A DNA stretch of 45,908 nt from a virus. The position numbers were made by a program, and so were the translations under genes. Below the pieces are notes generated by a model. That model was given only the letters and a program-made list of their open reading frames with translations. It made no database searches and was not told the DNA's origin. Positions 2,446 to 45,535 of the stretch are shown piece after piece. Numbering within the stretch: the stretch's first letter is position 1; every line of letters begins with the position of its first letter. The stretch spans positions 1 to 45,908 of the IMG/VR virus record IMGVR_UViG_3300047510_002652, one strand, 5' to 3'.

Positions 2446-2589
2446 ATGGCAAAGAGACCTTCGTTAACTGGTGGCGTTCATATTGAAGGCAAACCAAAGT
2501 GTACTCGTCAAGGTAGCAGTAAAAACACTAAGTATGCTGCTTCGTCACGAAATACTGCGAAAAAGAAATATCGAGGACAGGGCAGATAA
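2446..2589 (+). CDS. Very small, highly basic protein (47 aa)
   Basis: ATG at 2446, TAA at 2587-2589, 3 nt after the stop of the coiled-coil gene. It begins MAKRPSLTGGVHIEGKPKC and ends KKKYRGQGR: 13 of 47 residues are Lys or Arg and there is one Cys. The spacing and protein-like start support a real gene. A basic peptide this size may bind nucleic acid or act as a small capsid or tail component, but no function can be assigned. Its stop codon lies inside the late promoter of the next gene. Confidence 0.6.
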   Translation: MAKRPSLTGGVHIEGKPKCTRQGSSKNTKYAASSRNTAKKKYRGQGR

Positions 2590-2592
2590 ATA
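2585..2592 (+). promoter_or_regulatory. T4-type late promoter GATAAATA
   Basis: GATAAATA overlaps the TAA stop of the basic protein gene. Transcription would begin near 2598, giving a leader of about 57 nt that contains the whole hairpin at 2609-2647 before the ATG at 2655. Confidence 0.6.
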
Positions 2593-2608
2593 GTCCTGGA
2601 GATAGAAA

Positions 2609-2654
2609 CCTCCGTAAAAGTTCTACTTAGTAGTTCTTTTATGGAGGATTTTTT
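2609..2654 (+). terminator. Long hairpin plus T-tract sequestering the ribosome binding site
   Basis: A 12-bp stem (2609-2620 with 2636-2647, one G-T pair) continues, after a 2x2 TT internal loop, into a 4-bp stem CTAC/GTAG with a TTA loop. Six T residues (2649-2654) follow. The shape is that of an intrinsic terminator, but the 3' arm ends in GGAGG (2643-2647), a perfect Shine-Dalgarno 7 nt before the ATG at 2655, so it should also mask translation initiation. Confidence 0.75.
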
Positions 2655-43080: not shown

Positions 43081-43269
43081 ATGAATACTGAAACGTTACG
43101 CAAAAATTTTGAGGAGCAACTCAAAAAAATCAATGAACAAATTATTGGCATTGAATCTGATTTAAAAAGAGCACTAGAATACAGAGCAAAACTTGTCGGT
43201 GGTATGGAAACTTTAGACCTTCTAGAGAAGGGTGAAGTTCCTGAAGAAATGCCAGAAGTTACAGAGTGA
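43081..43269 (+). CDS. Small coiled-coil protein
   Basis: 62 residues from the ATG at 43081, chosen because GGAG lies 6-9 nt upstream and because the in-frame upstream start at 42970 would lie deep in the previous gene. Residues 3-45 form one long helix with heptad leucines and isoleucines (LRKNFEEQLKKINEQI, then LKRALEYRAKL), ending in an acidic tail (GEVPEEMPEVTE). Short proteins of this design are frequent beside fibre genes in marine T4-like phages, but their role is not settled; trimerisation or assembly help is plausible. The stop precedes the terminator-like hairpin by 7 nt. Confidence 0.75.
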   Translation: MNTETLRKNFEEQLKKINEQIIGIESDLKRALEYRAKLVGGMETLDLLEKGEVPEEMPEVTE

Positions 43270-43276
43270 TCTAGAT

Positions 43277-43313
43277 TCCCCCTTCCATAAATAGTTGAGA
43301 AGGGGGATTTTCT
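43277..43313 (+). terminator. Terminator-like hairpin with promoter in loop and RBS in 3' arm
   Basis: TCCCCCTT (43277-43284) pairs perfectly with AAGGGGGA (43300-43307), followed by TTTT. The 15-nt loop contains the late promoter core CATAAATA (43286-43293). The GGGGG of the 3' arm (43302-43306) lies 7 nt before the ATG at 43314 and serves as the ribosome binding site, so upstream transcripts should terminate or hide the site. Confidence 0.75.
43286..43293 (+). promoter_or_regulatory. Late promoter CATAAATA inside hairpin loop
   Basis: By T4 spacing a transcript from this core would begin near 43299, after the 5' arm of the surrounding hairpin. Its own RNA would therefore not form the hairpin and the ribosome binding site would be free. 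Confidence 0.6.
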
Positions 43314-43664
43314 ATGTCAGCAGTTCCGATTAATCTAACCATAGAGTCTGGTTCCGACTGGGCAGTTGAGTTCAATCTTCGTGACGAGAACGGAGATTAT
43401 ATTGACCTGACTGGATATACTTTAAGTTGTAAGATGGCAAGAAACTATACAACGACAACAAAGTATAGTTTAAATCCTCAGATCATAACTCCTGCCACTG
43501 GTCTTATAAAACTATCAATGCCTAATACTGGTGGAACTTTAGTCACCAAAACGCAAGATTTGAAACCAGGAAGATATCTTTGGAATCTATTAATTACCAA
43601 TCAAGGTGGAGATACTGATAGAGTTATAGAAGGTGTAGTTGTAGTCAAACCAGGAGTTCTATGA
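43314..43664 (+). CDS. Small Ig-like/BppU-like structural protein
   Basis: 116 residues. The pattern I-x-S-G-S-D-W, F-x-L-R-D-E-N-G-D-Y-I-D-L-T-G-Y-T-L-x-x-K-x-A-R-N, then I-x-L-S-M-P-N-T and G-R-Y-L-W-N-L-L-I-T ending V-I-E-G-V-V-V-V-K-P-G-V resembles the N-terminal beta-sandwich of BppU-type baseplate proteins and many small phage structural proteins. That is a resemblance, not a proven homology. It probably attaches a fibre or fills a gap at the tail periphery. Its ribosome binding site is in the hairpin described at 43277-43313. It overlaps the next gene by 4 nt (ATGA), so the pair is co-translated. Confidence 0.7.
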   Translation: MSAVPINLTIESGSDWAVEFNLRDENGDYIDLTGYTLSCKMARNYTTTTKYSLNPQIITPATGLIKLSMPNTGGTLVTKTQDLKPGRYLWNLLITNQGGDTDRVIEGVVVVKPGVL

Positions 43665-43984: not shown

Positions 43985-45535
43985 ATGGCGGCACCTAGAC
44001 TTCAACTTAAAAGGGGAACTACTGCCCCAGGTTCAATCTTCTACGAAGCAGAACCAATTGTAAGATACAACAGCGGTATCACAGAACTTCATATTGGAGA
44101 TGCTGGCGGTACTGGTACTGGTGCTGGAACGATTGTGGCATCGGAATCAGCTTATGCTGCTGTATCTCAGATGCTTGTTGCTGCCAGTTCTGCTGGTTCA
44201 GGTGAGGTAAGAATTTACGAAGATACTGACGAAGTTGGATCAAATTTTGTAACTCTTAAAGTTCCAGCTCTTGCTGCTAGTTATATTCTCACTCTTCCAT
44301 CAAATGATGGAGATAATGGTCAGTTCTTAACCACAGATGGTAATGGTCTTCTATCATGGACAACTGCTTCCATTACAAGTTTCACAACATTTGCTGTTGG
44401 TGGAACAGCAGCAACTTCAGGAACTGATAATATTGTTGCCGATACTTCTGGTGATACTTTCACATTTGCCGAGGGAGAAGGCATTAATCTGTTTACTAAT
44501 GCTACAACAGATACCCTAACAATTTCTGCTGAGTTAGCAAGCACAACCAATCCTGGTGTGGCATCTTTTGCTGCCGCTGACTTTGATGTAAGTGCTGGTG
44601 GTGAAGTTACTATCAATAGCATTAGTTTAACAACACAAACAGATGGCAACTATGTTGCTTCTATTACTAATGGATCTGGAATCACAGGTGGCAACGGAGG
44701 ATCTGAAGGTGCTGCTCTAACATTAGCACTTGACATCAATGGTCTTACAGCAGAGTCTGCCATTGCTGATGCTGATACATTCCCATTCTATGATGCCACA
44801 GCATCAGCAAATCGTAAAGCAACTGCCGATAATCTAAGAGATTATGTTCTCGGTGGAGTATCTGGAGACATTACAATTAATGCTTCTGGTGTTGCTACTA
44901 TTGCTGCCAACTCAGTTGCTCTTGGAACAGATACAGATGGTAACTATGTTGCTTCGGTTGCTACATCGGCAACTGGTGGTCTGACTGGTGGTGCCGCTGG
45001 TAGTGAAGGTGCTGCTCTTACTCTTGAACTCAAGAACAATGCTAACCTAACAAACAACTCAGTTCTGAAGTGGGATGCCACTAACGATCAACTGGTAAAT
45101 TCAATCGTTACTGATGATGGTGCTACCGTAACTATTGGTGGTAACTTAACGGTTAATGGAACTACAACCACCGTTAATACAACCAACACAGTTATTTCTG
45201 ATGCTCTGATTGAGTTAGCAAATGGATCAACTGGTGCTCAAGCAGCAACCAGAGATTCTGGTATCGTAATTGAGCGTGGAACCGATAGCAATATCTTCTT
45301 CGGTTATGACGAAGGTGTTGACGTATTCGTAGCAGGAACCACAACAGCAACTGGTGCTACAAATGGCGACGTTGCTCCAACTCCAATTGCTTTCCTCGCT
45401 GGCGCATTTAACGTAACTGATACTGCTGGAACTAACCAAGCAATCGTAAGTTACCTTGCTGCTGACGGACTCTTTACTGGTTCTGCTGCTGGTAGATATC
45501 TACAAAACGTAACAGTTGATTGTGGAACATATTGA
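43985..45535 (+). CDS. Fibre-like structural protein
   Basis: 516 residues, Ala/Gly/Thr/Ser-rich and poor in charged residues. The N-terminus (LQLKRGTTAPG, then ELHIGDAGG) is the QLRRGT-type head common on phage fibre proteins, also seen in weaker form in the truncated gene at 45792. The centre contains two related copies of T-D-G-N-Y-V-A-S...G-S-E-G-A-A-L-T-L starting at residues 219 and 317. Near 385-400 is V-N-G-T-T-T-T-V-N-T-T-N, then A-L-I-E-L-A-N-G and a D-S-G-I-V-I-E-R-G segment with FFGYDEG, a module I associate with cyanophage and pelagiphage fibres. It ends VTVDCGTY. No intramolecular chaperone or lyase motif is visible. Likely a host-contact or decoration fibre with its own late promoter. 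Confidence 0.72.
   Translation: MAAPRLQLKRGTTAPGSIFYEAEPIVRYNSGITELHIGDAGGTGTGAGTIVASESAYAAVSQMLVAASSAGSGEVRIYEDTDEVGSNFVTLKVPALAASYILTLPSNDGDNGQFLTTDGNGLLSWTTASITSFTTFAVGGTAATSGTDNIVADTSGDTFTFAEGEGINLFTNATTDTLTISAELASTTNPGVASFAAADFDVSAGGEVTINSISLTTQTDGNYVASITNGSGITGGNGGSEGAALTLALDINGLTAESAIADADTFPFYDATASANRKATADNLRDYVLGGVSGDITINASGVATIAANSVALGTDTDGNYVASVATSATGGLTGGAAGSEGAALTLELKNNANLTNNSVLKWDATNDQLVNSIVTDDGATVTIGGNLTVNGTTTTVNTTNTVISDALIELANGSTGAQAATRDSGIVIERGTDSNIFFGYDEGVDVFVAGTTTATGATNGDVAPTPIAFLAGAFNVTDTAGTNQAIVSYLAADGLFTGSAAGRYLQNVTVDCGTY
44639..45032 (+). repeat. Duplicated TDGNYVAS module (98-residue period)
   Basis: Two copies, at Thr219 and Thr317 of the fibre-like protein, share TDGNYVAS, a Gly-rich middle and GSEGAALTL. 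They are 294 nt apart, and the DNA is still visibly similar across the shared blocks. Confidence 0.7.

Follow-up and report, generated by a model that had tools for sequence, protein, structure and literature searches.

A late promoter motif in the loop of a T-tailed hairpin before a tail gene of a marine T4-like phage

In phage T4, an RNA structure in the leader of gene e lowers lysozyme synthesis approximately 100-fold, and late transcripts lack its 5′ arm, according to the account of this gene in PMC3014915. Further hairpin-regulated late genes are soc, 49, I-TevI, segB and mobE, as far as they are treated in PMC3014915 and PMC2988022. According to these accounts, read-through RNA likewise hides the ribosome binding site (RBS) of T4 soc, gene 49, I-TevI and segB and of Aeh1 mobE, and the late transcript lacks the 5′ arm; several of these cases are homing endonucleases inside early units, and the parts of both papers that deal with them describe no recurrent terminator-type element. 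Intrinsic terminators of T4-like phages, known from TransTerm predictions, are GC-rich hairpins followed by a T-tract at operon ends, and no late promoter in the loop is described in the sections of PMC1524935 and PMC3037559 that cover them. T4 late promoters follow a rule by which TATAAATA occupies positions −13 to −6 (PMC1524935, where it treats T4), and PMC2984593 documents NATAAATA as the late motif of S-PM2 and Syn9. The literature searched gave no account of marine phages with late promoters nested inside terminators.

The window, that is, the whole stretch of DNA analysed here, is a 45.9-kb IMG/VR virus record (45,908 nt) from a T4-like phage with tail genes closest to those of cyanomyoviruses; the source is a marine T4-like phage. 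The locus has the following features:

43081..43269, plus strand: small phrog_580 ORF of 62 aa (PHROGs match, 4.3e-12), the last gene before the hairpin
43277..43285, plus strand: hairpin 5′ arm, TCCCCCTTC, expected only in read-through RNA; covaries with the 3′ arm in relatives
43286..43293, plus strand: late promoter core CATAAATA in the loop; fits the cyanomyovirus late motif
43299..43299, plus strand: predicted +1 by T4 spacing, 6 nt past TAAATA; first base of the 3′ arm
43299..43307, plus strand: hairpin 3′ arm, GAAGGGGGA, containing the Shine-Dalgarno (SD) sequence GGGGG (43302-43306)
43308..43311, plus strand: T-tract after the stem, which may act as an intrinsic terminator tail and belongs to the spacer between SD and ATG; common to most relatives
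43314..43664, plus strand: tail protein gene, 116 aa (phrog_1084 / phrog_3304, 'L-shaped tail fiber protein assembly'), with homologues in cyanophages

From the TGA of the phrog_580 ORF (43267-43269), which ends 7 nt 5′ of the hairpin 5′ arm, the sequence runs through tctagatTCCCCCTTC (ending at 43285), CATAAATA, gttga (43294-43298), GAAGGGGGA, TTTT and ct to the ATG at 43314. The arms had been placed correctly at 43277-43284 and 43300-43307 in the first-pass annotation; an extra C-G pair (43285/43299) extends the stem to a perfect 9 bp, in which 43277-43285 pairs with 43299-43307 around a 13-nt loop. The sequence also bears out its placing of the promoter core in the loop, of GGGGG in the 3′ arm exactly 7 nt before the ATG, and of TTTT after the stem. 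Folding gave a minimum free energy of −20.7 kcal/mol (z = −3.8), and none of 200 shuffles was equally stable. A sigma-70/terminator consensus scan of the window did not call the element. Rfam returned no family for the window at the gathering threshold, nor at E ≤ 1 for nine loci that included element-bearing ones, and a blastn search of the region against isolate phages matched only a downstream structural gene.

The window has nine copies of ATAAATA, all of them on the plus strand and, judged from the ORF list, at most approximately 70 nt upstream of a gene start. The motif therefore behaves as a late promoter, its core standing upstream of late genes on the sense strand as in T4. Only the copy before the tail gene is nested in a hairpin. 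For this copy the T4 rule puts the predicted +1 at 43299, in agreement with the start near that position proposed earlier, so that a local late transcript would lack the 5′ arm.

The first-pass annotation had further held that read-through RNA would be terminated or untranslatable for the tail gene and that the locus resembles T4 gene e. Folding in silico agrees with read-through RNA being untranslatable, with an unpaired SD fraction of 0.00 in read-through RNA and approximately 0.60 in RNA starting at 43299. The resemblance also holds: the gene e leader (ACCTTCTATAAATACTTAGGAGGTATTATG) has the same layout, with a late promoter in the loop and both SD and predicted start in the 3′ arm, and its computed SD accessibilities (0.00 vs. 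0.60) equal those of the window. As expected of a gene e-type element, the SD of the window is paired in computed read-through RNA, and the promoter is placed so that the predicted transcript drops the 5′ arm. The upstream transcript of gene e is early and e is a lysis gene, whereas the window element is flanked by tail genes. A pure SD-sequestration switch in the style of gene e, with no real termination, would account for this geometry, identical down to the predicted +1 in the 3′ arm, and such switches are established for T4 e, soc, 49 and I-TevI (PMC3014915) and for segB and mobE (PMC2988022), within what these papers report on those genes. We nevertheless consider such a switch by itself unlikely, as gene e has no T-tract, whereas the window hairpin has one and also looks like a terminator. 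In most marine elements TTTT to TTTTTTT directly follows the stem, usually as a longer run than in the window, and elements without an SD in the arm are common. The marine form resembles the control of the T4 lysozyme gene and adds a T-tract to it. With this tract, and with the GC-rich hairpin that it shares with the predicted terminators of T4-like phages, the marine hairpin is plausibly an intrinsic terminator as well. For the window copy, termination is the less certain half, with a 9-bp stem followed by only four T, a 13-nt loop and no call by the scan.

We think it probable that the locus is a nested operon junction, in which one inverted repeat combines a T-tailed hairpin, a late promoter in the loop and, here, an RBS in the 3′ arm. 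Polymerase coming from the upstream tail operon would make the full hairpin, and this would end the read-through transcript at the T-tract; in RNA reading past the tract, the SD of the next gene would stay paired. A late sigma factor of the gp55 type would bring polymerase to CATAAATA in the loop, and late RNA, beginning at the first base of the 3′ arm, would be unable to form the hairpin and would leave the SD exposed. The tail gene would be expressed mainly from its own late promoter. The observation made in the first-pass annotation is confirmed and its interpretation is supported in substance: the sequences show the geometry, the compensatory arms, the recurrence and the spacing constraint, and the start site, termination, timing and translational effect are inferred.

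Two near relatives (L002 and L003) are almost identical at the element. In the 51%-identical homologues L004-L008 the arrangement reads ACCCTTCC-TAAATAGTTTG-GGAAGGGT, with the promoter kept and the stem rebuilt from other arms. Among 17 distinct phrog_580-linked elements, the eight inner arm positions pair at 0.99, compared with 0.42 when arms were swapped between elements in a register-aware test; a variant that let the arms pick their best register was less clear (0.79). A MAFFT alignment of the hairpins, in which the arms were misregistered because loop length varies, was not used. Arm sequences vary among clades and the arms are conserved by compensation, as a gene e-type element would require. 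Covariation preserving both stem and promoter, proposed earlier as a check, was found in the relatives with phrog_580 upstream.

The arrangement recurs widely in IMG/VR. An SD-type pattern (CCTCC..TAAATA..GGAGG.TTTT) matched at least 120 loci, compared with 4 for the control core TAATAA, which has the same composition as TAAATA. Among the matches listed, an ATG follows 6-10 nt past GGAGG in 113 of the 120 SD-type loci; of 94 distinct elements, 90 have 5 nt or more between TAAATA and the 3′ arm, with peaks at 5 nt and 8 nt, and 93 have a purine (A or G) as predicted +1. CCTTC-type hits that lack the T-tail show a flat distribution of this distance. The spacing constraint in T-tailed hairpins therefore indicates a promoter position from which transcription would begin at the 3′ arm or immediately ahead of it; for phrog_580-linked elements, the start is predicted 0-5 nt inside the arm. 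The pattern CCTTC..TAAATA..GAAGG brought up more homologues of the tail gene and of the neck protein gene g13 with the same arrangement (this wide pattern and its control were used for contexts only, not for counts). Among the matches listed, phrog_580 precedes 27 of 38 T-tailed CCTTC-type elements and none of the 86 hits without a T-tail.

The promoter within the hairpin is common to all elements, and loop promoter and T-tract together form their common denominator. This would fit a pure terminator that holds a promoter in its loop owing to genome compactness, the SD pairing being incidental, as would the stop codon of the upstream ORF, typically 5-10 nt 5′ of the stem. It would also fit most phrog_580-linked relatives, in which the ATG lies 13-17 nt beyond the arm, so that SD masking is not conserved; in these relatives, masking is the less certain half of the nested junction. 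The SD lies in the 3′ arm at the correct spacing, however, in the window, in five isolates (S-WAM2, S-RSM4, S-CAM1, Syn1 and S-MbCM7) and in the majority of the 120 SD-arm loci among the matches listed (at least 120 loci in IMG/VR), and L004-L008 retain their arms although the T-tract is shifted away from the stem (GGGTATATTTT). We regard a pure terminator as rather unlikely. Computed SD exposure in the late transcript is low for L004 (0.19) and S-RSM4 (0.05) owing to pairing of the SD with coding sequence further downstream, and this measure is therefore supportive and not decisive.

The first-pass annotation had named homologues with the promoter but no complementary arms as evidence that would speak against it. 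Such homologues were found, only outside the phrog_580 clade: in P-HM2, DSL-LC02, S-SRM01 and Sf-CH8, the tail gene is preceded by a late promoter without flanking arms. In these four, and in S-SSM7 and ACG-2014f, a small phrog_473 gene stands upstream of the tail gene. In S-CAM1, by our reading of the sequence, a phrog_580-like gene overlaps the tail gene and no hairpin is present there. The element is therefore not essential to the tail gene, and since hairpin carriers have phrog_580 where armless homologues have phrog_473, it belongs to the junction after phrog_580 and not to the tail gene. That distant homologues manage without the hairpin would agree with a chance hairpin, or a protein-binding palindrome, around an ordinary promoter; the compensatory arm changes, the specificity for the core and the spacing constraint make this highly improbable, and clade-specific arm sequences do not suit a fixed protein site.

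A search with the exact 16-mer CCCCCTTCCATAAATA gave matches mostly in unrelated places. L016 (IMGVR_UViG_2791355148, approximately position 1075, minus strand), a phage that seems to be unrelated, has the same hairpin string TCCCCCTTCC-ATAAATACCTTA-GGAAGGGGGA just past the end of a gene, with no T-run directly after the stem; this hairpin may be unrelated, with ATAAATA in its loop by chance.

In 12 isolate genomes, TAAATA was nested in a T-tailed hairpin (stem of at least 7 bp plus T-tail) in 10 of 1855 occurrences, compared with 22 of 37,221 for 14 other hexamers of the same composition (Fisher test, P = 1.4e-6); this comparison is conservative in that part of the control hits come from the same elements, shifted by one base, a few of the TAAATA elements are mutually orthologous and so not all are independent, and the last few kb of P-HM2 and DSL-LC02 were left out. 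DSL-LC02 has one T-tailed nested element, and the same test gave none in Syn9, P-SSM2, P-HM2, HTVC008M and T4. The element stands before g13 in S-RSM4, S-WAM2, S-H9-1, S-MbCM7, ACG-2014e, S-PM2 (at approximately 66780-66815) and Syn1. In S-RSM4 and S-CAM1 it also separates the g43-uvsX-g41-mazG operon from a gene of no assigned function, and S-WAM2 has it at the same junction, somewhat further from mazG:

S-RSM4 44452-44490, minus strand: post-replication-operon element, before a phrog_8438 or phrog_1462 gene
S-CAM1 126703-126744, minus strand: post-replication-operon element, before a phrog_8438 or phrog_1462 gene
S-WAM2 143173-143205, plus strand: post-replication-operon element, before a phrog_8438 or phrog_1462 gene

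The mazG-junction pattern also matches in S-H9-1, S-MbCM7, ACG-2014e and Syn1, a result at the level of the sequence pattern. The junction after mazG is an early/late boundary, where the logic of T4 gene e would fit best. In the window both flanking genes look late, so control of timing is less obvious than after the mazG operon.

The hairpin at 2609-2657 had been assigned the same geometry as that of the tail gene. It does have the SD in its 3′ arm, and a T-run precedes the ATG, but its ATAAATA (2586-2592) is outside the hairpin on the upstream side, so that a transcript from this motif would contain the whole hairpin; it is a different element. The leader of the phrog_1414 gene (start 2655) at 2598-2653 (plus strand) is a candidate structured RNA. 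Its P1 stem is GGAG/CTCC in the window and AGGG/CCCT, CGGG/CCCG, AGAG/CTCT or AGTG/CACT elsewhere, with the loop ATAGNAAC and then AAAAGTTCT. The RNA occurs at no fewer than 120 loci, P1 covaries, and Rfam gave no match to it. AG(N)AAC and GTTCT could base-pair into a pseudoknot, whose strand was fixed by the search pattern, so that the covariation support extends to P1 and not to the pseudoknot. Among the matches listed, 103 of 114 distinct ORF-bearing loci also have the GTTCT strand in a hairpin immediately upstream of the start codon; with two alternative pairings for this strand, a switch is possible. In 55 of the 121 leader copies among the matches listed (window 2586-2600, L544-L663), 8-12 nt separate the end of an upstream TAAATA from the ATAGNAAC loop. 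This spacing puts the predicted late start of those 55 copies at approximately the first P1 base, and the leader RNA would stand at the very 5′ end of their late mRNA.

Although we would not quite call it probable, one inverted repeat may serve marine T4-like phages as a general operon gate that superimposes terminator, late promoter and often RBS and recurs at fixed boundaries (before g13, before the tail gene and after the g43-uvsX-g41-mazG replication operon), with only initiation in the loop expressing the next gene. If true, this would extend a type of regulation known for a few T4 genes to an element that recurs and can be located, and many late start sites could be predicted to the base from the nested geometry. 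It would explain how compact marine T4-like phages hold adjacent operons apart, an explanation testable in cultured S-PM2, Syn1, S-RSM4 and S-WAM2.
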